Origin: Epichloe hybrida
Lineage: Eukaryota; Ascomycota; Sordariomycetes; Hypocreales; Clavicipitaceae
Assembly (NCBI GenBank): GCA_019022495.1
Contig: JAFEKR010000045.1
Coordinates: 1-64,000 of the forward strand
Length of the DNA: 64,000 bases
Direction of reading: 5' to 3'
Position numbers and translations under genes: made by a program. Position 1 is the stretch's first letter, and each line of letters opens with the position of its first letter. Under the pieces are notes generated by a model, which worked only from the letters and a program-made list of their open reading frames with translations, did not search any database and was not told the DNA's origin. Positions 4,400-63,760 of this stretch are shown in pieces.

Positions 4400-7300
4400 G
4401 TTATCTTATAGCAAGGATATATCTTCTACACTAGATAGGTCCCCCACAAATGGTTTAAGATTAGTAATATTAAAAACATTATACAGACACGTTCTAGGTA
4501 ATAGCTTTAATTAGTATATAAGTCCGTAAGTACTAATTACCTTTTTAATTTTATAAGGGCCTAAGTACTTTATACTTAGCTTCCTACTAGGTTACTATAA
4601 GTTAATATTCTTTATAAATAATAAAACATAGTTACCTACGCTAAACTTTATTAGGGTCTGCTTCTTATTATAGTGTTTTATATATTAGGCCTATAAGTTA
4701 CTTAGAAGCTACTTAATTACTACATGTCTATCTTTTAGCGTAATAGCATAAGTTTTTACCTAGTTATTTACTATAGGAATATTTGTAACCACTTACTATA
4801 GTCCCCTAGGGTTATAGCCTTATAGCGCCTTAGCTAGGGTGTAGCTATAAGTTAAATAAGCGCTTATATTATACATAAACTATACTATTAAAAGGTTATT
4901 AGCCTAATTAGTTTAGTTAAAGTAAGCAAAGGCTCTTAAATAGTGCTCTAAAACTTAGTTTAAATGTTTTATCTAACTATCTATCTGTAGGTAAAACGTA
5001 ATGCTTAGTTACTACTTAGTTATAATAAGATAGTAAAAGGTTATCTAAAACCTACTAGTAAAGGTTAAACTATAGTCTATAATAATACCCTCTAGAGTGC
5101 TATAATCCCTAAAAACATATTCTAAGAATATAGTAGCTAACCTATTGCTAGTTATACGCATTAAAACAGGGATATAAATACTATATTTTATAAAATAGTT
5201 TATAATAACTAAGATTATATCGTAAGTCTAGTTTACGTCTTTCACAGGTAGCAGCCCTATAATAAAGTCTATTAATAATTCTTAAAAAGGCTAATCAGGT
5301 ACTAGTAGTATAGCTAGCTTACTATAAGGTTTATAGTGCCTTAGCTTTAAAGTCTAGCAGCTTATATAAGTTCGCATATATAACTTAGTGTCTTTCTTTA
5401 TTATTAGCTAGTAATACTAACTTATAATCTAATAGAGGGTCCTGCTAACTCCCTAGTAGCCTGCTACTAGGTTATTATAGGTAAGTAATATAACTTCCTT
5501 TCTTATACTAACTAGAACAAAAACTTTATTCTTAAATATTAATAGCTTAGAGGGCCTAATAGACTATATTTATAACGCTTCTAGGTCACTACTCTTAAGC
5601 AGCTTCCTCTAACCTATAGCAAAGTTATTACCTTACTATACTTAAAATAACATAACTTAAATTAAAGTCTTTAATTTTACGTACATAGGATAAGCGTTAC
5701 ATATAAACTTAGAAGAGGTTTGCTAGACTACCTATATTCTTACTATAACACTACTATAAGTAGCTAGCTTATAGTGTACTTTTAGACTTATAGACAAATT
5801 ATAGCTAAGCAGTGTTTTAAGGGGATACTTACGCTACTTGCTAACTACTAACCTAGCTAGACTCCTAACCTATAGGCTTACTAGACTTATAGAAATATTA
5901 GAAAACATAGACAAGGCGTAACCTTACTACTTATAATAAGCGGACCTAGTTAGTATACTACTTATAGGCTTTATAGGACTATTAGGTTTCTTAATAATAT
6001 AATAAAGTTATATCTTCTTAAAACCCTAGAGGCTTAAATAGCCCTTATAGCGCTCTTATAATAAACTATTAACTACGCTAAGTAATATAACCTTAGGGCC
6101 TATAACTACACTATTATATATATAGCGCCCTTACTACTTAGTATCTAAAAACTTAGCTAAGAAGTTAGGTAGCTATAAGAATACAGCCTCCGCCCTATAC
6201 TCCTTACTAATATAATTTACTCTTCTTAACAAAGTATTAGTAAGGTTTAGCTTACTTATATAATATTTAATCCTAAAATTAAATAAATAGAGCTTATCTA
6301 ATACTATTACTTACTTACTAGATAGCTTTAGCTTTATAGCTAGGTACTTATAATTTAGATAGTTTATAATAATCATAATCTAATAAGTTAAATATATAAG
6401 GTAATATCTCTAGGCTTAAAACGCCTCTTAGATTACTAATAACTTAGCGTCTAGGGTTAAGTAGTAAAGTTTAATATTAGTTAACTTCCTTAAAAAATAC
6501 GCTACTAGGTGCTAGCTACCTAGCACTAATATTATAAGTATAGCTCTAATTATATAACTAGATATGTTTGTCTTTACTCTTAGCAGATAAAGTAAGTTAA
6601 AGTGCACTAAGATTAGTACCTCCTAGAACTTCTTTTAGAGTTCTCTAAACGCTATAAGTTTACTAGGCTTTAGCTTAAACTCTACTAGTTAAATACCCTT
6701 TAGATAGTTTATTAGTGGGACTACTACCTTACTATACTATTTTATAAAGCATTAGTAAAACCCTATAAACCTAAGGAATAATTAAATATTAAACACACTA
6801 CTAGGTATTAGCTAGGTTATAATAGCTTTAACCTATAATGGTTTTATCTTAATGCCCTTCTTAAATATAATAAAACCTAGGAACTTTGCCTTTATAACTA
6901 AAAATTAGCACTTTTTAAGGTTAACGTAGAGGTTAGCGTCCTAAAGTTATCCTAGTACTCTTTTAATATGCTCTGTGTGTCTTATAGGGTCACTACTATA
7001 TATTAGGGTGTTATTAAGGTAAATAATGCAGAATTTATCTATAAGCCCCTTAAGAGCATTATTAATATATTCCTAAAAAGTAGCTAGCGCATTCACTAAC
7101 CTAAATAGCATCACAAGATATTTAAAGTGCCTATAGTAGTAACGGAATGCTATCTTCTACTTATTACCCTTATGGATACGTAGCTAGTAGTACGCCTCTT
7201 AAAGATCTAGTAACGTGAAAATCTTTACATCTGCTAATTAATTAAGGATTTCGGAGATTAGTAGTAAAGAGGCCTTATTTTTAATAGTAATCCTATTAAG

Positions 7301-9579: not shown

Positions 9580-9846
9580 TATTATAACTATATTTAAGAA
9601 AATATAAATAAAGTAAAGGCTAAGGTTCTTAGTTATAGCTAGAGAGCTACTACTTAGGGGTAGGTATATAAAGGTCTTAAACTCTAACCTTCTATATCTC
9701 TTATAGGTAGTCCTTATCTAAATACCTTACTATACACACGTGGCTATCTAGTAGCTACTTAGTTATCTGCGTAGGCTAAGGCTTACCTAAGGGCTCTATT
9801 ATATAACTATCCTATCCGCGACTCCCTAGCCTCCGTGCTCCTAACA
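9580..9846 (-). repeat. Gypsy LTR (5' LTR of minus-strand element)
   Basis: 267 bp, partner of 2031-2297 at a constant offset of 7,549. The first 40 bases are much more heavily transition-mutated than the rest, so mutation was uneven along the repeat. The CTTTC duplication follows directly at 9847. Confidence 0.93.
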
Positions 9847-10940
9847 CTTTCTAACTAATGATTTGATTAACAATTTGATTAACAATTTGATTGATAATTT
9901 GACTAACGATTTGACTAATGATTTAACTGACTTTCTAACTAATGATTTGATTAATAATTTAACTAACGATTTAACTAATGATTTAACTAACGATTTGATT
10001 GACAATTTGATTGACAATTTAACTAACGATTTAACTAACGATTTAACTAACTTTCTAACTAATGATTTGATTGATGATTTGATTAACAATTTGACTAACG
10101 ATTTGACTAACAATTTAACTAACGATTTGATTAACAATCTAATTAACAATTTGACTAACGATTTGACTAACTTTCTAACTAATGATTTAATTAATGATTT
10201 GATTGACGATTTGATTAATGATTTGACTAACGATTTGACTAACGATTTGATTGACAATTTAATTAACGATTTAACTAACGATTTAACTAACGATTTAACT
10301 AACGATTTAACTGACTTTCTAACTAATGATTTAATTGACAATTTGATTGACAATTTGACTAACGATTTGACTAACAATTCGACTAACGATTTGATTAACA
10401 ATCTAATTAATGATTTAACTAACGATTTAACTAACGATTTGACTAACTTTCTGACTAATAATTTGATTAACAATTTGATTAACAATTTGACTAACGATTT
10501 AACTAACGATTTGATTAACGATTTGATTAACAATTTAACTAACTTTCTAACTAATGATTTGATTGATAATTTGATTAATAATTTAACTAACAATTTGACT
10601 AACTTTCTAACTAATGATTTGATTAACGATTTGATTGACACGATTTAATTAATGATCTAATTGATGATTTGACTGACTTTCTAACCGATTTGACCGATTT
10701 GACCGATTTGACCGATTTAACTGATTTGACCGATTTGACGATTTGACGATTTGACTGACTTTCTGACTAATGATTTGATTGATGATTTAATTGATGATTT
10801 AACTGACGATTTGACTGATGATTTGATTAACAATTTGATTGACAATTCGATTGACGATCTGATTGACGATCTGATTGACGATCTGATTGACGATCTGATT
10901 GACGATCTGATTGACGATCTGATTGACGATCTGACTGAAC
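9847..10940. repeat. 12-bp-period minisatellite, right part
   Basis: Continuation of the array interrupted by the Gypsy element. It begins with the CTTTC duplication, runs through dozens of GATTTGACTAAC-like units with recurring CTTTCTAACTAATGATTT variants, changes to GATTTGACC-type 9-bp units near 10680-10750, and ends with nearly perfect copies of GATTGACGATCT (about 10853-10935) followed by a C9 run. The homogeneous end and degenerate middle suggest recent expansion at the right edge. Both strands are open for about 260 codons; this is not taken as coding. Confidence 0.9.
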
Positions 10941-20704: not shown

Positions 20705-23511
20705 TCAAAACACAAATTGTGCCTGCGACAGAGGTAGCGCATCCGCCGGGGGGCATCTCATTATCTCTCCATTTGCCGTGACCGTGTAACTTTCTGGATC
20801 GACGTCTATTCGTGGAATTGCATTATTCCAACGCATGCTAGCTTTTGAAATGCTGCGACAGTTACGAACTGCCTCGATCCGACTGCGCAGCCCATAGCTG
20901 GCTATTTTACCAGACGAGATGCTCTCATTGCTCACGATCAGTATTTTAGATAACGGTGCAAGCAATCTGTGTACAGGGCGGCCAAAAGTAGGTTGGACAG
21001 TGGGAATAGAGCCGCTCGGGCTACCCTGAAGATAAGAAGACGAATATTAGTTACTTATGGCCAAGTCATGCTGCTCAGTATCCTTCATCTCCACTTACGG
21101 TCTGCTCCCACGCCACCATACCGCCCTTCAATATGCACGAGGGTTTTGTCCCAAACCACGCTGGCTCCCAGATAACAAGATCTGCCAATTTGCCAACCTC
21201 CACGCTACCGAGTATGTGCCCGATGCCTTGGGCAATAGCTGGGTTGATGGTATACTTGCTGACGTATTGCTTAACTCGAGAATTGTCGGAACTTTCTTGC
21301 CAATCTCTCGCTAAGGGGCCTCTCTGGAGCTTCATCTTGTGTGCTGTGTTCCAGCAGCATGATATGACTTCTCCACAGCGCCCCATAGCTTGGGAGCCGG
21401 AGTTTATTATGCTAATAACGCCGTCGTCGTGTAGAACATCCTCTGCAGCGATGGTTTGCGTCCGGATCTGAGACTTAGCCAACCTGAAGTCTCTGTCCCT
21501 GGAGTCTCCGTCGACGATTCCGGATAGATCGTTACTAACCATAACCGTATCGAGTAGCTCGTCCGATCTGTCCTGTGTGAATAGACGGGTCACATTTGAA
21601 GATGCTGGCAGGATATTATTGCGTCCCGCAAGTGATATTACGTCAGGCACATGTCCGCCCCCAGCACCTTCAGTATGATACATATAGACTGTTCTGTCCT
21701 TAAAGGCAGAGATCGAGCTTTCAACATGCCCAGACTCGTTGAGTGTGTCGGTGCTGATACTGCATTGAACATCAAATTTGTCACATGCGGTTAAGCAAGC
21801 ATCAATTGTGGCGGGAGTTGCTCCTCGGGATTCCTAGACACACATGCCACAAGCACCTGCAGTGATTTGCTCGCGGAGATTTTCAGCAGCGGAGTCGGAA
21901 CCTGTGCCGGTCAATCCAATGTTAAGAGGCAGCGTATCGTAGATCTGAAGAAGGGCGCCTATGCTACCTGTTCCTGAAGTATAATTGATTCCGGCGCTGC
22001 TCAATATATTAAGATGTGTACACACATGACAAATTGGCACTAGTGCTCACTTACCTTGACCCTATATGACCCGAAAGCAATGTGGTTACACCAGAAGCCA
22101 GTGATTCCTGTGCCTTTTGTAGGCTTATTTGACCTGAGTCAGTATCAACACCGCCAGCCGTTATAATCTTACCCTCTCCCGGCACAATAGCTGTGGAGCT
22201 ACCTATAACCATGTTCGCGGAAATCCCATCCATGATGTCTGGGTTACCAGCCTTGCCAATTCCCACGATGTCGCTTCCCTTAACTCCAATGTCTGCTTTA
22301 TATATACCTGTGTAGTCTAAAATAAGGGCATTTGCAATCACCAAATCTAAACATTACTCACCGGGTCTCCCAGAAGCCTGACCCATGCCGTCACGCAAGG
22401 TTCTTCCATATCCAGCTTTGATTTCATCGCCGTACAAAGCGAAGTCCTTTTCGACTGTAATCCAGAGATCTGTGTGGCCCAAGCGCACCCGATCTCCAGT
22501 TGTTGGGCCATACATGGCCGCGTATTCAGAGCGAGACAGGCTGAATGAATCGATGTATCTTGTGTCAGCATAGGGAACATGGGCAAAGCCTTTGATCTGC
22601 AAATTCTTCACTATTTCTTCAACACGACATTGTTCAACAAAGCCAGAGGCCAGACCGTTGCCCCCGCTTATCATCATGCTGCCACCAATTTTCACCAAGG
22701 TAACCATCCTCGCATCCCAAGGCTCATTGCGGAGGGTCGTCCCAGAAGGTATGTCGAGGCGATAGCCATATGCTTTGCTACGATCGAATTCTAGCAGGGG
22801 ATTCGCCTCCACAAAATGGTAATGTGATCCAATTTGAATAGGGCGATCTGATTTGTTAATGACTTGAATCCGGACTCTTCTCCTGTGTATATTCAGAGTG
22901 ACTCGACCTTCCTGGACCACCACAGCACCAGGCTGCCTTTCTGGCTCATACTCCGAGTCAGGTGGGGTTGGGAATAAATCTCTGTTTGGAACTGGCAAAA
23001 AGCTTCCATAGAGAGCTATTTCCAAGTCGCCTTCATCTGTGGAGATGGGGTCGCGAACGGTAACAAGGTGTGTGCCCGATTTGAATGTGCCTTCGATCTG
23101 AACTTTTTTTAAAGTGCTGCCGACAGAAGGAAGTACGTGGCGGCGACCGAGCATGTTGGCGCCCAGCTCGCCTAGCTCCAAAACGGAACTTTTTCCATCA
23201 CGTATGAGCTCAAGAAGGTTGCTAGCAATCAGTGACTAGCGAGAGCGCGCGTCAGCATAAATTCCAAGGCAGAGGTTTGCTGTCAATCCCCCCCCGGGGG
23301 CGGGGGCTGATATACCGCAGCTTCAATGTGATTAAGCTGTATGCCACGGGCAAGCCTTTTCTGTGCGAGGCTGCCTAATTGAGAGACATAGAGGTTATCG
23401 AACTATGCCGCAATTAGCAAAGGGGTTTGGATTGCCTCGAAACCTGATGTTCTCGGACGGGGACCAAAGAATGGACGATGATAATCACACCTCTTTGGGT
23501 ACAAGATACAT
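20705..23511 (-). pseudogene. Urease homologue, catalytic residues lost, two stops
   Basis: Full-length relative of single-chain fungal urease (gamma, beta and alpha parts fused). Five exons can be placed: 23511-23491, 23402-23316, 23235-22055, 21996-21099 and 21025-20705, all with GT-AG introns. They sum to 2,508 nt (836 codons), the normal length for the family, starting MYLVPKE and ending LPLSQAQFVF. Two in-frame stops: TAA at 22354-22356 (E codon before [11 protein letters not shown]) and TAG at 21834-21836 (the His of the KIHED block). Catalytic sites are replaced: HIH becomes DSG ([11 protein letters not shown]), the carbamylated Lys becomes Cys (GACGMC), HTDTLNE becomes STDTLNE, MVCHH becomes MVSND, SSDSQAMGR becomes NSGSQAMGR. 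Only the HTEGAGGGH His remains. No frameshift was found. It cannot hydrolyse urea; whether it was a pseudoenzyme before the stops arose is open. Confidence 0.9.
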
Positions 23512-38428: not shown

Positions 38429-40152
38429 ATGCCCAAGGTTCATTTGTTGGACTATGTGGCCGGCAACATTCGTAGCCTGGTGAATGCGATCGAAAAGCTG
38501 GGATATGAAGTCGACTGGGTTCGCTCACCGGAGGACGTTCCTAGAGCTGAGGTCAGTCTTGCCATTGCATCATGGCCCCCGCAGGATGGGAAAGAAGACG
38601 TCAAGAATGCTGAACATGTTTTTAGAGACTTATTCTTCCCGGTGTCGGCCACTTTGGCCATTGCTTGTCCCAACTATCTCAAGCAGGCTATCTGCCTGCC
38701 ATCCAAAAGCACATTGACGAGGGAAAACCCTTCATGGGTGTATGCGTCGGTCTGCAGGCCCTCTTCGAGGGATCAGCTGAAGACGCAGATGTCCCGGGTC
38801 TCGGTGTGATCAAAGGACGCTTGGAACGGTTCGACGACTCAACCAAATCCGTTCCTCATATTGGTTGGAACAGCGCAAGCGCAGTGAAGCAGTCGATGTA
38901 CGATCTCCGTCCTGACTCCAAGTACTACTACGTCCACACCTACCGAGTGCCGTATATCGAAGGAGACCTCGAGTCTCAAGGTTGGACCGTCGCCACAGGC
39001 ACCTACGGCGACGAGACATTCGTTGGAGCCGTGGCCAAAGGCAACATATACGCTACACAATTCCACCCTGAAAAGTCCGGCGTAGCAGGTCTACGAACTA
39101 TCCGCGCCTTCTTAAATGGCGAGGGTGCCGCGGCCCTGGGCGCCAACACTGGCACGATGGATCCCACAGCCTCTGCGCCCCGTGATGGTCTTACGCGCCG
39201 TGTCATAGCCTGTCTTGACGTTCGCACCAACGACCAGGGCGATCTTGTCGTCACAAAAGGCGACCAATACGATGTCCGTGAGAAAGATGATTCTCGAAAC
39301 GTCCGAAATCTCGGCAAACCCGTCGACATGGCGAAAAAATACTACCAAGACGGTGCCGACGAAGTGACCTTTCTAAACATCACATCCTTCCGAGACTGCC
39401 CCGTTGCCGACCTTCCCATGCTCGAAATCCTCAGACAAACCTCGCAAAGCGTGTTTGTGCCCCTCACAATAGGAGGTGGTATTCGCGACACCGTTGACAC
39501 AGATGGGACCAAGGTCTCTGCCCTTGAGATTGCAACCATGTACTTCAAGTCCGGCGCTGACAAGGTCTCTATTGGAAGCGACGCCGTCCTTGCCGCAGAG
39601 GAGTACTACTCTTTGGGGCGCAAACTCTTCGGCAACACGGCAATTGAGCAGATTTCCCGCGCGTACGGGAATCAAGCTGTCGTGGTGAGCGTGGACCCTA
39701 AACGTGTATACGTTCCCAAGGTTGATGCAACAAGACACAACATCATCGAGACCAGGTTCCCTGGCCCAAAGGGTGAGCCGTATTGCTGGTATGCCTGCAC
39801 GATCAAGGGTGGTCGCGAGACAAGAGACGTGGACGTGGTTGAGCTGGCGCAGGCCGTTGAAGCCATGGGTACAGGGGAATTGTTACTCAATTGCATTGAC
39901 AAAGATGGATCAAATGGCGGATTTGACTTGGAGCTCATTGCGCAGGTCAAGGCGGCTGTGAAAATACCCGTTATTGCCTCTAGCGGCGCGGGCAACCCTA
40001 GCCACTTTGAGGAGGTGTTTGACAGGACGACTGCGGATGCTGCCCTCGGTGCGGGTATGTTTCATCGAGGAGAGTATACGGTGAGACAGGTCAAGGACTT
40101 TCTTCATGAGAAGGGCCTCTTGGTTAGGCAATTCGAAGGTGACTTGTCATGA
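38429..40152 (+). CDS. HIS7: Imidazole glycerol phosphate synthase (HisH-HisF fusion)
   Basis: Bifunctional histidine-pathway enzyme: the N-terminal glutamine amidotransferase makes ammonia, the C-terminal cyclase forms imidazole glycerol phosphate and releases AICAR to purine synthesis. Two exons (38429-38551 and 38626-40152, intron 74 nt) give 549 residues, normal length. Start [13 protein letters not shown]. The amidotransferase shows [13 protein letters not shown], nucleophile Cys in [15 protein letters not shown], and the His/Glu pair in QFHPEKSG. The cyclase starts [10 protein letters not shown] (catalytic Asp), has LTIGGGIRD, and the second catalytic Asp in [15 protein letters not shown], then [10 protein letters not shown]. 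Intact. The start was chosen by family match rather than the longer upstream open frame. Confidence 0.97.
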
Positions 40153-46731: not shown

Positions 46732-49700
46732 ATGGCTGGCATAGAGAAGCTGGAGGTCCACAGCAAGGTAAGAGCCATTGTCGTCACGATATCCTTAGCC
46801 CCGGTCTTGAGAACAGTCTCGTACCTCGCTTTCAGACACTTATTCAGCTCAAATAGTCTTACATCATCCGCTGGGTCAGAGTCGACGAAGATAATACCCT
46901 CTCCTGGAGTGTGCAACCAAATAAAAAGTCCATGTAAGTAAGTGGCTTTGGAACCTTGGCGGACGATTGCGCGCCATTTTGCTGACCGTGTTGTGCATTG
47001 CAGCAACTTCGGCATCGTGAAACATCCCGGCAGTGGTGCAACGACGATCCTCTCAACAAATGGCGACGAACTCGACGGTAGTGCTCACGTCGCTCGTGTT
47101 GCTGACGGAAAAAGCAGCAGATTTCCGAAAAAAGAAACCGCGCAGGATCTCTTAACCGGCAAAGGATTCATACCAATATCGTGGCACGGCAAATGCGAAG
47201 CAGACAAGGTGTCCAGGGGTACTCATGATGTTCATAAAGGCGACGGCGGCATGTATGGCCTGGTTTTCGACAACACCTTCTCGAAGCAGACGTCCAAGAC
47301 TGCCACGTTCGTGGTGCTCACGTACCCGACTGGTGCTCCTCCACAAACCACCACAAACCTACCCAATCTGCAATTACCGACCGCGCAGGCCAGCCAATCC
47401 AGCCTGGGGAAACATGGTAGTCCGAGTCATGAGCATGGTCCGTCTGTTTCTGTCGACAGCTTACCCAGCCACGGGCGTGCGAGGGCAACATCTTCAGGTG
47501 GAAAAAGTGATACCACTGGGTCTCTGAACTACCACGTTGGTACGCTCTCGAAAAGACGCCGTAAAAAGGGACAAGGCTATGCTCGTCGTTTCTTCTCGCT
47601 TGACTACTGTACATGTACTCTGTCATACTACTACAACCGAAACTCGTCCGCGCTTCGTGGCGCGATTCCTCTCAGACTTGCGGCGATTGCAGCGGATGAG
47701 AGACGACGAGAGATCAGCATTGATTCGGGCGTCGAGGTGTGGCACTTGAGGGCACCCAACGACAAGGAATTCCAAGAGTGGGCACGATCTCTTGAGCGGG
47801 CTAGTCGCATTGCTCGAGGTCACGAAACATTGAGCAAACCTTCCAAACCTGTACTGAAACTAGATAGTCGGGCTCCCCAACGTACACACGATTCCAGTCA
47901 TACCGAAGACGTTGAGTGGCAGCAAGTTGAGACACTCGTCAGTCGTGTTGTTGGAACTCGGGATGCTTTGCGCCGATTGACCAAGGAAGTGGCTCAGTTG
48001 CCAAAACCGACATCCAATGCACAACTTTCATCCCTCGGATCTGCAAATACGGGAGATGATGGGAAAGAAAGCTACTTCCCGCCTGTAACAGAGAGGAAGT
48101 CGTTCTGGAAGCGCAAGTCCAGCGCATCAGTCCTCACGCCGTCTGCTCTCCAACAGGCTACCCACTCCGCCATGGCTGTTCCATCGCCCGGGAGCGTTAC
48201 GACAACTGCAGCGAGTGTGGTCGGCCACTCATCCAGACGACGATCCCGCGGGGTGACACAGGAGGAAATTTCACTTCAAGATCACTGCGAATCACTATTA
48301 TCTGATCTAGATTCTGTTGTTTCCGAGTTCACCTCCTTGATATCCAAGAGCAAGAGGAGACGACTCCCACACCCACCTTCTGCTGGAGCTAATTCGCGCA
48401 TGAGTGTGGAGACGACGTCTACCGATGAGTTTTTTGATGCTGAGGACGCTAAGACCGGCGTCGTCAAGATTGGTGGCAGCGAGGACGAGTCTGCCGAGAC
48501 TGACGCCGAAGAAGATTCCATACACGACAACTCCTCCATATCTTCCATTGAGGACGACGATGGGGTTGGGATTGACGGCGCAGGTGATATTTATCCCATC
48601 CGACCCAAGAATCTGGCCCCTCTTCCTATTGATCAGACAGTGAAGCGAAGAACTGGTATTCCGCCCGCAACGGTCCAGCCACCTAGTCTTATTGCCTTTG
48701 TCCGCAAAAACGTCGGAAAAGATCTTAGCACAATCAGCATGCCTGTTTCTGCCAACGAACCAATATCATTGCTACAGAAAGTCGCCGAGCCTCTCGAATA
48801 CGCACAGCTTCTGGACAAAGCCGCCAGACAAAAGAGTCCAACCGAGCGCCTGTTATTTGTCAGTGCATTCGCCGTGTCCCAGTTTAGTGGCGGCCGAGCC
48901 AAAGAGCGAGCTATTCGCAAACCCTTTAATCCGCTCCTTGGCGAGACGTTTGAGTTGGTAAGGACAAGCAAGGACATACCAGGAAACTTCCGCCTTCTTG
49001 TTGAGAAGGTGCAGCATCGTCCGGTCAGATTGGCCATGCAGGCGGACTCGGTGGCTTGGTCATTGTCTCAATCCCCTGCCCCAGGGCAGAAGTTCTGGGG
49101 CAAGAGTGCCGAGATCACTACAGACGGCCGTGTCCGAGTGGTTCTGCGGTTAGCAGATGGCAGCGATGAATTATATTCTTGGAACATTGCGACCATGTTT
49201 CTACGAAACGTTGTAATGGGGGAAAAGTACGTCGAGCCCGTCGGCTCGATGCACGTGATGAACGACAGTACCGGTCATAAAGCATGCGTCGAATTCAAGA
49301 GCAAGGGCATGTTTGGCGGTCGTTCAGAGGACGTCTATGTCACTACATTCGGTCCGGACGGAAGTGATACGGGCAGCGGCCTGACTGGCACTTGGACCGG
49401 TGGCCTGAGGACTGTCGGGCCTGGCAAGGCAGCCAGCGAGGAAATATGGCAGGTTGGCCAACTCGTCGACAATGCGGCTCAAACGTACGGAATGACCATC
49501 TTTGCGGCTACACTGAATGAAATCACGGAGATTGAAAATGGCAAAATGGCACCAACAGATTGTCGGCTGCGGCCTGACCAACGATATGCTGAGCAAGGGG
49601 ATCTGGATGCGGCTGAGAAGTGGAAACATAATCTTGAAGAGGCACAGCGTGCTCGGCGCCGAGAACTAGAGGACCGCGGGGATGTACACAAGTCGCGCTG

Positions 49701-49836
49701 GTTTGTCAGAGCTGAAGATAGCCCAGATGGTGAGGAGGTTTGGAAAATCAAGACCGGCAAAGAAGGGTATTGGGAAGAGAGGTCTCGTGGGAACTGGACT
49801 GGCGTCCCCGAGCTGTTCAACGTGCCTGACCTGTAG
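46732..49836 (+). CDS. Oxysterol-binding protein, Osh3-like (GOLD-PH-FFAT-ORD)
   Basis: Lipid-transfer protein of ER-plasma membrane contact sites. Exons 46732-46767, 46857-46933 and 47004-49836 give 981 residues starting MAGIEKLEVHSK. The N-terminal GOLD-like domain includes YIIRWVRVDEDNTLSWS and DNTFSKQTSKTATFVVLTYP. A PH domain follows (LSKRRRKKGQGYARRFFSL to EFQEWARSLERA, about residues 195-290). An FFAT motif, DEFFDAEDA, lies near residue 511 and should bind the ER protein VAP/Scs2. The lipid-binding ORD starts about residue 600: NPLLGETFEL, then EKVQHRPVRLAMQADS, the Osh3-type version of the signature that is EQVSHHPP in most relatives, and KFWGKSAEI. The C-terminus ends ELFNVPDL. Intact. 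Confidence 0.93.
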
Positions 49837-51511
49837 AGCAGATTTCTTCAGTAGGTTACATTTTACTCTCTTGGACAAGAGGCTTAGCAGTTGTGGTTTT
49901 GGTCACAGGCTTTGATCGGAGACGACTGCGGAAGGGGCGCTTACATGTACACTCAGATGTGTGGCGGTGGAACAGTGAGTGGCAAGGGGCGCATGAAGGC
50001 TTGATTTTTGCGGGGTTCACGTTGTACTGTAGCCTGTAGGCTGCCCGTCACGCCGTCACGGCGGCCACGTATTTTCAACATTTGCACTTGTTCCAACTTT
50101 CTATGCGAAAATGGGATGCCGTTATATTATATGGACAAAGTCATTAGTTAACGACTAAGGAGGTTTTACGTATAGCTCATCACAGCTGTTAGAGAGGAAC
50201 GAATAACTGGGGCATGTACATAGATTTGTAAAACAATTCAGGGGGGGCATTGTATCTCGAGGGCCCTGACGATCGCGCTATTTTACATGGTGGATTGCGG
50301 TTGCACGTGCCAGTAGTCAAACGGCTCGCTTTCTGTTTTTTTTTTGTTGCAGGGAACAGCGCGAGTGCACGGAGCTGCGCTTGGGCGAGTGCTAGCACGC
50401 TAAAATCACAAATGGACACTTATTAAGGTTTCAGGGGTGCCCGCTAATAGCACGTCGCGCCGAGGGAGTCGTGAACGATCGCAATGTGCCAGCATGGCCC
50501 TGTCGAATATCGCCCCGAGGCGAGCAGTACACTGATTTCAGGGCAGGTATCACACACACACAGTAAAGGTAAAACAGTGTCGAGCTCGTATCATGGTGTC
50601 ATGGTGTACGGGGTACATACCGAGTACTCTGTACTCCGTAGAGGTGGTGGGAGAGCAATATCCCTTCTGGTTCGTATCACGCTGGATTTTCCGTCGCGAA
50701 ATACAATGTACTCTATCCGAGCGAATGTTATGGGGATAAATAAGCTTGGCGTCTTTACATGTATGCATAGCATGCTCACGCCATTTTTAACACTTGCCAA
50801 CAACAAGTGTTGGATGTGGCGGGCTTTTTGCCGAGTACACGTATGTACATGTCGGTTCACGGTCTAGGTCGACACGAGAATCGCGGTACTCCGTGCAGTC
50901 TCCACTCCCGCTGTTTCGTCCAGTCGCAGGCGCCAATCCGGTCGAATGGATCTTATGTACGCGTCCGAAAAATACACCCCAAACAAGACTGCATTGTTGC
51001 GGACCGTAGCATCTCTACTCTATTTCGTCTTAATTAAGAGGTACATACTGTATGTATTTATTGTCGTCTCACTTCCCTGTGGAGATCAATGATACACACA
51101 CGCCCCCCTACCAAGTACCGCCCTCCACTCTCTGTGTTGTTGTTCCACGGACCACCGTCCAGTGTCTTGGCGACGACACACGCCATGGATGCCCCGGTAG
51201 TGCAATTCCTTCCTGCCTTGCCTCCTGCCGTAGCAACCTTCTTCCTCCTCCTTCCTCAATCCTCGCTCTGGGTTATCGTTTTGCCTCTTGTTCAATTCGA
51301 GTGCTCATTCCAACTCCTTCGTTGTTGGACTTCCTCTCCTTCTTATTTGTAATTCTAAACTTGGCTCTTTGTTCATCGTGTCTTGCTTCATTCTAGTCGC
51401 ACGACTCGACCCCTCCACTCTCTTGGGGATTTTAACGACCATTCTATACAAATAAACCCGCCATCACTGGACCCATACTCATTTGGTTTTATTGCCTGGT
51501 ATTGTTTCATC
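49837..51511. other. Intergenic between Osh3-like and GH72 genes
   Basis: About 1.7 kb: Osh3-like 3' end, a dispersed repeat copy, several TACGTAC/TGTACAT-rich palindromic words (50600-50870), and a pyrimidine-rich stretch (51110-51420) typical of a strong fungal promoter before the GH72 start. Confidence 0.5.
50186..50254. repeat. Dispersed repeat, copy 1
   Basis: Starts CTGTTAGAGAGGAACGAA, contains GATTTGTAAAA and a G-run, and ends near GTA. The same sequence in the same orientation occurs at 62638-62701 with a few changes and a small gap. It extends weakly upstream (TACGTA and CAGCTG words). Family unknown. Confidence 0.75.
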
Positions 51512-60413: not shown

Positions 60414-61280
60414 CTATAAGGCGACGACCATCTCGGGATCAAAGTCGTGGGCGTTCCTAAACTTTCTATTCTTCGGCTGTTGTGTCGCGTCGCCCGGTAG
60501 TACGTATCCCCGCTGATTAGCCACCAACCTCATGCCGTTCCGCACAAAATCTGTAGAGTAATGTGTGTGGCCGAATACCCAGACCTTGATGCCATCCCAG
60601 CCTCGTTGGTCCAGAAGGTCGGTCGCGAAGGCGGATGTCCAAGGGTTATTGGAATCTCCAGGTCGAGAAGTGCCTTTCACGCAGGGCGCATGGTGTGTCG
60701 CTACTAGAAGCTGTCTTTCGGGACTCTGCGGCGACTTGGTCACTTGAGCAATTTGCTGGCGGAGCCACGAAGCCTCCACGGTGTGAACTTCGTTGTGTTC
60801 CCGGGCGGTCCACCCGGCTATCCTCTTAAAATCATTGATCTTCGATTCAATGAGATTGGAAGCCTCCTCTGGTATTGCGGACCACAGTGTGCAACCGATA
60901 ATTGTCAGTGCAGAGCTCGGGTCGTCCCATCGAGTTTTGTTTAGGAGAATGAGTGTACCAACAAGCGATGGTTCATTTGCCAAACGCCGCGCTTCGTCAA
61001 GCCCTGAAAGATAATTCAGACCATAAAACTCGTGATTTCCCAATACCAAAAAAATCTTTTCATATCGGGACACCTGTCCTTCGAGAAACTTTAGGTATCC
61101 ATCGTAGTCAATGAGCCGTCCGATATCTCCAGCCAAGAGCAAATATGGGGCGGAGACAGGGAATGTGTAGGACAAATACTGTTGACCGACCTCGAGATGC
61201 AGATCTGAAAGGATCTGAACTCGGGGGCTCTGAAAGCGGCGCTGACGTCTGAAAATAATTCTCAAAAATGTTTCCATCAT
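60414..61280 (-). CDS. Calcineurin-like metallophosphoesterase
   Basis: Single-exon protein of 288 residues starting MMETFLRIIFRRQRR. All five metal and active-site motifs of the family are present in order: SDLHLE (about residue 25), GDI, GNHEF (about residue 81), the HH of VATHHAPC (about residue 197), and GHTH (about residue 243). It hydrolyses phosphoester bonds with two metal ions; substrate unknown. The subgroup resembles stand-alone Ser/Thr phosphatase-like proteins common in fungal accessory regions. Intact, between decayed genes. Confidence 0.9.
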   Translation of the reverse strand: MMETFLRIIFRRQRRFQSPRVQILSDLHLEVGQQYLSYTFPVSAPYLLLAGDIGRLIDYDGYLKFLEGQVSRYEKIFLVLGNHEFYGLNYLSGLDEARRLANEPSLVGTLILLNKTRWDDPSSALTIIGCTLWSAIPEEASNLIESKINDFKRIAGWTAREHNEVHTVEASWLRQQIAQVTKSPQSPERQLLVATHHAPCVKGTSRPGDSNNPWTSAFATDLLDQRGWDGIKVWVFGHTHYSTDFVRNGMRLVANQRGYVLPGDATQQPKNRKFRNAHDFDPEMVVAL

Positions 61281-61470
61281 AGGCTAGGATATGGAGGAAG
61301 AGACTGAGAATGGGCCGCACGAAATGTCATGAGCGCTGAAGGTTGATGTGGCAGGTGATTGGCGCGAGGGGTTTCCATGGGTGGGGTAGGCCAAGTTGCA
61401 ATAAAAGGGGCGCCGCCGCCTTGTACATAAGCATTTGCCTTCAGAAGCATCTGCATCGCAACCTTTCACA

Positions 61471-62225
61471 ATGGACTTGACGCCGATAAAAGTTGCCTCG
61501 GTAATTTTGAAACATCACGGCGTTTCAACGTGCATTGCCGGTGAATTGGCACTGGATTACTACAACGTGCCCCGAGTCTGTCATGTTAGTCCTCTCGTTT
61601 GTTTGGCACATTCTACGCATAACTAACCATGACCAGGATCTGGAGATTATGTGTACTGAAATCAAGCTCTCTGGCGGCGGCTAGGCTCCTATGCTCCACT
61701 GGGCTGTTCAATTCTTGCGAGTTGGACACTGACTTCAATAATTACACAGAGTATAAGCGTGATATTCCGCGGGTACAGACCACGTACTGGTGCCCGCCGC
61801 AGACCATTGTCATATTTAATGCTGCTTTTTTCGGCATTGATGCTATCGAGGACGTACTTGTTCCACCCATTGATGGACAGACTATTCATATCAGCAAAGA
61901 AATACAGCTGAATCGCGACGATATTGCAAATCTGCATTTGCCTCGACTAGCAGCTCTTCTCAAGGGTCTAGCAAGGAGGTATTTAGATGCGAGGGACGAT
62001 GTAGCCATGATAGCAGTCGAGCAGCTCGTTGATGGCATGAACATCGATCAAGTATGGGTTGAAAGACAGCTTAAGGATTCCGATGCTGCTATTCTGGATC
62101 TAGTAATGAGCCAGGTTAGGAGCAAGAGGTCAAGGATAGATTACTACACTGAGAACAAAATCACTTGCTTTATCTCCGATGAGGAGGAGGCTAAAAAGGT
62201 ACGACTAATTCCAGGATTCGAATAA
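61471..62225 (+). pseudogene. Nucleotidyltransferase-fold-like gene, frameshifted
   Basis: Exon 1 from the ATG at 61471 encodes IAGELALDYYNVPRVCH, resembling the glycine-helix start of minimal nucleotidyltransferases, and ends at a GTTAGT donor near 61585. After a short intron the sequence DLEI continues, but one extra A shifts the frame (stop within 50 bases). In the other frame CVLKSSSLAAARLLCSTGLF, NNYTEYKRDIPRVQTTYW and ISKEIQLNRDDIANLHLP continue to a stop at 62225. Only this single base separates it from an intact gene of about 235 residues. Fold assignment is weak. Confidence 0.5.
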
Positions 62226-62856
62226 GCGGCATTTCTAGATGGCTGTCGGCGAGGCCTGCGAAGTTCGTGTCCAGAAGATCGATGGATACCAAGATTGTGT
62301 GAACCAGATTGACAGCCGACGGTCAGACACAACGGGACCACCTTGTTGGCTCGCTCTTGACTTGCAACCCGCGGATGTACAGGCAACGTTACCCGTCCTC
62401 GGCCGAATCCACGGCACACCCTTTTGCTGAGACCGCAGATCGCAGATGGATCCGTGAACCTTGACACAAGGCTCATCTTGCTCGCCAATGCCCACAGAAA
62501 GGCCTGCCTTGTGCTCGAGCATATCGAAATTTTGCGTGTAGCAACTCAGCAGCTTGCCATCGTTCTGTAGCGTGAAAATGAAACGGTGGGTCCTTGTCGG
62601 TTTGTACGTACATGTACAGCTGATCGCAGCTGTCAGACTGTTAGAGAGGAACGAAAAAGTGGGACATGTAGATTTGTAAAATACTTCATGGGGGAAGTGT
62701 AGGAGAAAACCCTCGACACTTTTTACTCTCTCCATCCCCATCCACCACCTTGTTCCGTACCTCGCATGCTCAGCGCCTCACATCCTCCAGCCTGTTCCAA
62801 ACAAGGCAGGGCCAGAACCGACCCATCGAAGAAATGTTACATTGATAACCACCAAC
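62226..62856. other. Intergenic with dispersed repeat
   Basis: About 630 bases before the micro-exon gene. A 168-codon minus frame lies here but resembles no protein. The dispersed repeat copy is listed separately; a pyrimidine-rich stretch (about 62710-62800) may be the micro-exon gene promoter. Confidence 0.5.
62638..62701. repeat. Dispersed repeat, copy 2
   Basis: Second copy of the element at 50186-50254, same orientation, sharing CTGTTAGAGAGGAACGAA and GATTTGTAAAA, with a small internal gap. Confidence 0.75.
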
Positions 62857-63571
62857 ATGTCAAAGTTGTAAGTTTGACTCGGAAATAATTCTTTTTCTGT
62901 CGCTTGTACTGTGATTGACAATATCTAGAACTTCCTGAACGCAGCGAAGGTCAGTAGTCACTGACATCGGGTTTCGACTTCACCAGCGAGGCCAACCAGG
63001 AGCTAACGCTGTGTTCTTGTAATTTCTAGGCTAAACTCGCCCAAATTTCTGTAAGTAATTCTAGTTTAGCCGTGGCGTGACTTTTGCTAATATTCCTCCA
63101 GGCTCTGCAAAAGGAGCATGAAGTAAGCACCGGTGAAATTAACCCTTATACTACTAATAATGCATAGCAATGGCTAATAAACTTAGAATCTCTGTCGACA
63201 GGCGGTCGTGAGTGTTCAATGCCGAGGCTTATTTGACAGCAAGCTAATCAGATTTCAATTTAGGACTGCGAGAAGAAGGCCCTTGTATGTACTTTTCCTT
63301 GTGCATGGCCAGCTGCTAACAAGTCTGACACAGGAGGCCGAGAAGAACGAGACTGTGAGTGCGGACGTATTCGTCTTACAACACAATTTGATAAGCTAAA
63401 CTTACGCCATTTCTACAGGGCGCAAAGGACGTCACGGAGGTGAGATGACCGAAAATATTTATTGAACGCTTACTGACGGAAAGTTTAGGAGACATACCGC
63501 AAACTTGTAAGTGAATTACACACCCAAGATCGACAGAATGTAAGCTAATCATGAGATAGTTGGAGGAGTAA
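62857..63571 (+). CDS. Micro-exon gene, heptad-sized exons
   Basis: A run of tiny exons separated by GT-AG introns of about 50-80 nt. Exons: 62929-62949, 63030-63050, 63102-63122, 63202-63207, 63264-63284, 63334-63354, 63419-63439, 63489-63506, 63560-63571, i.e. 21, 21, 21, 6, 21, 21, 21, 18 and 12 nt, every one starting and ending in phase 0. They encode NFLNAAK, AKLAQIS, ALQKEHE, AV, DCEKKAL, EAEKNET, GAKDVTE, ETYRKL and LEE-stop, a charged helical peptide of about 53 residues. Donors are GTAAGT, GTCAGT, GTGAGT or GTATGT types; acceptors TAG or CAG. A first exon ATGTCAAAGTT with donor GTAAGT (62857-62867) has a good start context and would give MSKL, but joins one base out of frame, so the 5' end is unresolved. 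No family recognised. Confidence 0.7.
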
Positions 63572-63760
63572 GGAGAGCGGTTGCTCTTATTTTCTTTGGT
63601 ACATGTATTTGTAAGTGTCCCGTTTCGCCATCTCGACGTGTTCAGCAAAGGCGAAAGACTGTTTTGTCACCCCTACCATCGGCGTCACCGGAGCCACGAG
63701 ACTATCACTAAAACTCTGATTCATTAGAACATGCACAGAAAGAGTCGAAATGAGAATTAG

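Follow-up and report, generated by a model that had tools for sequence, protein, structure and literature searches.

A predicted small gene occupies about 700 bases of the Epichloe hybrida genome, with nine short introns and with exons equivalent to two helical turns. It is probably a real protein-coding micro-exon gene of this Clavicipitaceae fungus, present in two homeologous regions, spliced by intron definition and encoding a small helical product. The gene was identified in the window, the whole 64,000-base stretch of DNA analysed here, which comprises bases 1-64000 of contig C97 (350,579 bases) in a genome assembly of 79.9 Mb and 156 contigs. A DNA search of the genome revealed one further copy, on contig C69. 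The exons of the window copy, placed by script, form a chain in which an 11-nt exon 1 (E1) is followed by seven exons of exactly 21 nt and then by exons of 18 and 12 nt, as follows.

62857..62867, plus strand: E1 of the window copy, ATGTCAAAGTT, 11 nt; in C69, 30 nt from the same ATG (MSKFWRNKRD)
62766..62867, plus strand: alternative first exon of the window copy, joining E2 in frame, 34 codons
62929..62949, plus strand: E2, 21 nt, NFLNAAK; in C69, NLLAVAK
63030..63050, plus strand: E3, 21 nt, AKLAQIS; in C69, AKIAEIS
63102..63122, plus strand: E4, 21 nt, ALQKEHE; residues identical in C69
63187..63207, plus strand: E5, 21 nt, NLCRQAV; in C69, HLCRQAA; supersedes a 6-nt exon of the initial annotation
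63264..63284, plus strand: E6, 21 nt, DCEKKAL; missing in C69
63334..63354, plus strand: E7, 21 nt, EAEKNET; missing in C69; weak in-register likeness to E6
63419..63439, plus strand: E8, 21 nt, GAKDVTE; in C69, GAKDATE
63489..63506, plus strand: E9, 18 nt, ETYRKL; in C69, EIYRKL
63560..63571, plus strand: E10, 12 nt, LEE and stop; TAA in the window, TGA in C69
62868-62928, 62950-63029, 63051-63101, 63123-63186, 63208-63263, 63285-63333, 63355-63418, 63440-63488 and 63507-63559, plus strand: nine introns, GT...YAG, each with a YTRAY word

The introns of the window copy measure, in order, 61, 80, 51, 64, 56, 49, 64, 49 and 53 nt. In eight of the nine, a YTRAY branch word is positioned 9-23 nt upstream of the intron end, while the sole such word in the intron at 63355-63418 is TTGAT, 27 nt from the end. 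The GC content of the seven 21-nt exons is 54%, compared with 40% in the introns. A micro-exon layout, defined as one in which most of the coding sequence resides in small exons of 3n length and a single phase, is evident in the window copy from E2 onward, where all exons are phase 0, and in all eight exons of the C69 copy, E1 included. The initial annotation had listed nine exons in this region, and its coordinates and eight of these exons were right. The remaining one, the 6-nt GCGGTC, gives way to the 21-nt E5, the acceptor of which (cttag/AATCTCTGTCGACAGGCGGTC) is upstream of that assigned to GCGGTC. E5 can be read as an in-frame exon in both copies, whereas the C69 version of GCGGTC is 5 nt long and breaks the frame. 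It is possible that the 6-nt form represents use of an alternative acceptor in the window copy alone. With E5 included, seven exons correspond exactly to one heptad, rather than the six counted earlier.

The C69 copy aligns over the gene, with E1 (30 nt), E2-E5, E8, E9 and E10 all in frame, and its product comprises 54 residues. The splice sites are the same as those of the window copy, all seven introns are GT...AG, and each of the eight exons, from E1 to the stop, is 3n in length. The stop falls at a common position in the two copies but is encoded by different codons, TAA (window) and TGA (C69). The C69 copy is without E6 and E7 and two introns, the reading frame being kept. Whole exons can go without a change of frame, as C69 shows, which bears out the frame neutrality proposed earlier. 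The view that the locus is a chain of symmetric heptad-sized exons also holds, as the chain is common to two copies and displays coding constraint. In the window, the donors of E5 and E7 that flank the stretch missing from C69 both read GTGAGTG, and E6-E7 were most likely lost from C69, apparently by deletion between these short direct repeats. An insertion in C97 is a possible alternative in this comparison of two copies. Neither the DNA search nor a search with a pattern derived from E4 found a third copy in the genome; the E4 pattern gave nine genome matches, of which the seven beyond the two copies had three mismatches, while the reversed control gave 11 matches.

Within the window copy, E6 and E7 (63264-63354) have a common 16-base repeat in register with the exon starts, and the pair is assigned to repeat family D2. 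Of the 21 exon pairs, the closest has 13 of 21 bases alike (P 0.0165), and this weak likeness of E6 and E7 provides a hint that one micro-exon may have been copied from its neighbour. Pairwise comparison of the introns revealed likeness not beyond that of shuffles (best pair, P 0.13) and, with E6 and E7 weakly alike, an origin of the array through unit duplication is conjectural.

The two copies show that the substitutions in the gene favour synonymous sites. Excluding the stop, E2-E5 and E8-E10 contain 23 differences in 132 bases, at 5, 5 and 13 first, second and third codon positions, respectively; with the stop codon included, 24 of 135 bases differ and dN/dS is 0.14 (45 codons). Nine amino-acid changes are seen, whereas random placement of the same 23 changes leads to a mean expectation of 14.9 (P 0.00145), and 58.5% of 20,000 such placements created a stop. 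In this test, which rests on two copies and 44 codons, E6 and E7 having no counterpart, amino-acid changes are fewer than expected and stops are avoided, indicating that selection has acted on the coding frame over much of the period after the copies diverged.

Divergence in the seven introns common to both copies, at 42 of 412 aligned bases, is similar to that at the synonymous sites of three nearby genes (46.5/354, 76.2/692 and 22/203 sites, a range of 0.11-0.13). The exons as a whole exceed the introns in divergence (23/132, P 0.03), as do the third codon positions (13/44 seen; P 0.0025, computed with a count of 12). At synonymous sites of the micro-exons 13 of 30 differ (0.43), far above 0.12 (Poisson 0.0001), and nonsynonymous divergence is also raised, at 10 of 102 sites compared with 0.013-0.026 in the three neighbour genes. 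Divergence is, however, uneven along the locus: in the 5' flank (62700-62856) 27 of 153 aligned bases differ, about the exon level, and in the 3' flank (63572-63752) only 8 of 181. Conservation of length over sequence would predict quicker change in exons that keep their length, although it would not account for the synonymous change. A broader interpretation, which we regard as rather unlikely, is that this is a lineage-specific fungal gene in which the 21-nt phase-0 exons act as a length code, one heptad each. The length of the helix would be set by splicing within a generation and by whole-exon loss during evolution, with frame and register kept, so that exon length and not sequence is conserved.

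The 5' end of the gene differs between the copies. E1 of the window is 19 nt shorter than its C69 counterpart, with the length difference immediately 5' of the GTAAGT donor. Translation of the window copy from the shared ATG gives MSKLTS and then a stop within E2, and the E1/E2 boundary is phase 0 only in C69; the assignment of every exon to phase 0 in the initial annotation is thus valid from E2 on but not for E1 of the window. Upstream in-frame ATGs are located at 62688 and 62766, and in-frame stops at 62568 and 62700. Back to 62500, only the ATG at 62766 reaches E2 in frame without meeting a stop. Direct reading of C69 revealed that this frame is not kept there, as the matching frame closes before exon 1. 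Either the window copy is newly broken in exon 1 or its start is upstream at 62766. The chances appear evenly balanced that the window copy is a recent pseudogene in which the 19-nt loss shifts the frame, leaving only the C69 homeolog to make protein. Such decay is consistent with the 11-nt E1, compared with 30 nt in C69, and with the termination of MSKLTS within E2, and a hybrid with two copies could be expected to tolerate the loss of one. Conversely, E2-E10 and all nine introns appear intact in the window copy, selection on the frame is visible across the divergence of the pair, and the ATG at 62766 joins E2 in frame. A pseudogene in the window is compatible with a real micro-exon gene as such.

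The product encoded from E2 on in the window consists of 58 amino acids, including 10 K/R, 12 D/E and one glycine but no proline, consistent with the charged helix predicted in the initial annotation. A continuous coiled coil is less well supported by the two products, as the 3.5-residue periodicity, tested against shuffles, gave a P of 0.009 for the window product but 0.073 for that of C69. In the best heptad register, hydrophobic residues (Ala and Cys counted) occupy 11 of 17 core positions in the window product and 10 of 16 in C69. The C69 product starts MSKFWRNKRD and by eye is without a hydrophobic signal segment. No Pfam family reached the cut-off for either product, and neither contains a NACHT or an ankyrin domain. 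The Cin1 repeat (Pfam PF20738) was rejected, as it scored 11.3 bits (E 0.41) against the window product compared with a cut-off of 27 bits, no family was returned for the C69 product and no match over the cut-off was found in the genome. The best solved-structure match, CTPR-rv4, was obtained for the window product only, at an E of 0.071, and was likewise set aside. The protein search advocated in the initial annotation yielded no homologue of the product sequences among 5.8 billion sequences (one candidate, none scored). The favoured view is of an intracellular product that is small and helical, perhaps a coiled coil, and would act as an adaptor varying in length by whole heptads.

In the proposed mechanism the small introns are probably recognised one by one, through intron definition, and the seven 21-nt phase-0 exons and the short end exons would be joined into one mRNA. 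Exons of 21 nt would need no definition across the exon because introns of 49-80 nt are small enough to serve as the recognition units. Introns of this length are ordinary in fungi, in which intron definition is established and is reportedly the subject of a fission-yeast paper. The operation of intron definition here, as the initial annotation had argued, would follow from the 49-80-nt introns and be unsurprising. The mRNA is predicted to encode a small, charged and proline-free protein that is mostly helical and has no evident signal peptide (54 amino acids in C69, 58 from E2 on in the window), to which each 21-nt exon would contribute one heptad, equivalent to two helical turns. Loss or skipping of an exon would then shorten the helix in whole heptads while the frame and the helix face are kept. 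Skipping may be used by the gene, and the C69 copy most likely lost E6 and E7 as whole heptad units. The helix could act as a short coiled coil or adaptor that binds a partner.

The likelihood that splice-like words were arranged in this manner by chance was addressed with a script that identifies runs of 21-nt exons that contain no stop and are flanked by YAG and GTNWG, requiring a YTNAY branch word and an intron length of 45-100 nt. The script returned a run of seven on the plus strand of the window, no run of at least two on the minus strand and a run of five in the C69 copy. On both strands of a set of 30 other loci the longest run was one, apart from L004, which contains the C69 copy. This set contains 254,756 bases counting both strands; L001-L003, L006-L009, L026 and L027 overlap the two copies and were excluded. 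Among the 29 comparison loci, several were fetched because they matched repeats or the E4 pattern, and the set was hence not drawn at random. Of 60 Markov-1 simulations of 64 kb, 59 had a longest run of one and the other a longest run of two, and 3,000 local simulations of 900 nt produced a longest run of two once and otherwise of zero or one. A one-exon pattern found three matches in the window, two of them in the micro-exon gene, where 100 shuffles averaged 0.24 matches, although the filters for both this pattern and the run script were set after the locus was known and the figures are descriptive.

The absence of an annotated homologue, and the fact that the gene is known here from DNA sequence alone, would fit a chance arrangement of splice-like words with no gene. 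Such an accident is scarcely credible, however, given the run of seven compared with the simulations and other loci, the coding-constraint test and the same layout in the second copy. An alternative is a non-coding host gene in which the short exons are by-products and the introns carry small RNAs. snoRNA host genes contain many short introns and tiny exons, a layout that the locus resembles, and the introns are less diverged between the copies than the exons. We consider this reading highly improbable, as the third-position bias, the 3n exons and the stop kept through TAA and TGA are features of coding sequence, and no Rfam family was above its gathering score in the locus. Furthermore, intron divergence (42/412) is at the synonymous level of the neighbours, so that no extra constraint on the introns is seen. 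It is also improbable that the gene encodes a secreted host-directed protein diversifying through micro-exon splicing, in the manner of schistosome MEGs or aphid bicycle genes. This proposal draws on the similar layout of many small one-phase exons, on exon divergence exceeding that of introns and on amino-acid divergence above that of three neighbours. It conflicts with the MSKFWRNKRD start of the C69 product, which by eye displays no hydrophobic signal segment, with a dN/dS of 0.14, which is not raised, and with the presence of two copies rather than a large family.

The micro-exon gene resembles several known systems in layout. The available portions of the schistosome MEG literature describe genes in which most of the coding region consists of very small symmetrical exons, permitting alternative splicing into similar proteins (PMC4350168; exon size, PMC10526429). 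They also report a signal peptide, introns of up to 5 kb, families seemingly restricted to flatworms and raised dN/dS (PMC4350168, PMC10526429). Small symmetric coding exons are thus common to the schistosome and Epichloe genes but the latter has introns of 49-80 nt, no evident signal peptide (by eye) and a dN/dS of 0.14. Aphid bicycle genes, in the accessible sections of PMC9168663, contain numerous internal exons of unusually small size, almost all of them sharing a single phase, phase 2, with ~17 exons on average, ~121 homologues in one aphid and CYC motifs. The small exons of a single phase are a shared feature, although here the phase is 0 rather than 2, and direct reading of the two products revealed no CYC motif. 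Among ascomycetes, the NANK (NACHT-ankyrin) genes of Tuber melanosporum are described, in excerpts from citing articles, as having tens of codon-sized (3-bp), alternatively spliced micro-exons (Iotti et al. 2012, via PMC3689799, PMC4986451, PMC10197012). Both are ascomycete genes with micro-exons but NANK exons of 3 bp occur in receptor genes, whereas nearly the whole of the small Epichloe gene consists of 21-nt exons and no NACHT or ankyrin domain is present. The Xlr2 transcription-factor gene of Trichoderma virens, according to the portion of PMC11121469 available, contains a regulated 20-nt micro-exon that was studied experimentally and had been missed by annotation. This fungal micro-exon is similar in size to those described here, but it is a single exon whereas the Epichloe gene contains a chain. 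While the layout is like that of the MEG, bicycle and NANK systems, the further features examined for membership of the MEG, bicycle, NANK and Cin1 groups were not found in the gene. The statement that no named fungal family has this layout survived the homologue and literature searches, with Trichoderma Xlr2 and Tuber NANK being other fungal micro-exons in print. No literature on this layout in Epichloe was found in a search that left subscription journals mostly outside, 'epichlo' and 'microexon' together returning 0 papers.

If the proposed gene is real, it constitutes a compact fungal micro-exon gene with uniform exons, in a layout common to two homeologs. It would offer a simple system in which to test intron definition on very small exons, as well as a test case for exon length tied to a protein repeat. 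It also illustrates how micro-exon genes may escape annotation, as the search of 5.8 billion sequences found no protein relative, although named homologues from Epichloe exist for both of the neighbouring genes tested. Micro-exon genes are, though, easily missed by annotation, which weakens the absence of homologues as counter-evidence.

Of these neighbours, the ORF at 58086-59369 matches, across 85% of its length, an Epichloe bromicola hypothetical protein with 86% identity. For the oxysterol-binding protein gene at 46942-49836, identity is 97% with E. bromicola and 99% with an unnamed protein. C97 and C69 are collinear for the most part, apart from a single inverted block next to the micro-exon gene, and the C69 counterparts of the genes at 46942-49836 and 38665-40152 show 96% and 95% identity, respectively. 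The block in question, window 60414-62603, is inverted and split into three minus-strand pieces in C69, indicating that the homeologs are rearranged right beside the gene. Non-hybrid Epichloe genomes are about half the 79.9 Mb of the present assembly. A genome of this size with paired copies fits an interspecific, allodiploid-like Epichloe hybrid, in which the two gene copies are probably homeologs. Epichloe hybrids are in print, as documented in the available text of PMC3945203 and PMC4383479.

Further copies of the genes at 46942-49836 and 38665-40152 are present on C85, one complete and one in two pieces. Identity to the C85 copy is 100% in the 38665-40152 gene, compared with 91-96% in the 46942-49836 gene, which suggests subgenome exchange or an assembly join. 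A dispersed repeat of ~60-100 bp lies just upstream of the micro-exon gene, at about 62604-62712 in the window, with a similar sequence at 50186-50246; dozens of genomic copies are among the matches listed, and it looks like a short degenerate mobile element. On the C69 side, downstream of the gene (L004, about 4408-4636), ~230 bases that are not in the window copy match many-copy genomic repeats. The ends of this insert, TGTTGG...CTAACA, give it by eye the appearance of a solo LTR. The one Rfam match in the whole window is remote from the locus. It is to 5_ureB_sRNA (window 22107-22400, 56.3 bits), is located inside what looks like a fungal urease gene and is probably conserved urease coding sequence, not a small RNA. 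Finally, window 9841-10648 contains overlapping ORFs of 266 and 261 amino acids on opposite strands, with short leucine-rich repeats, in a low-complexity tandem array.
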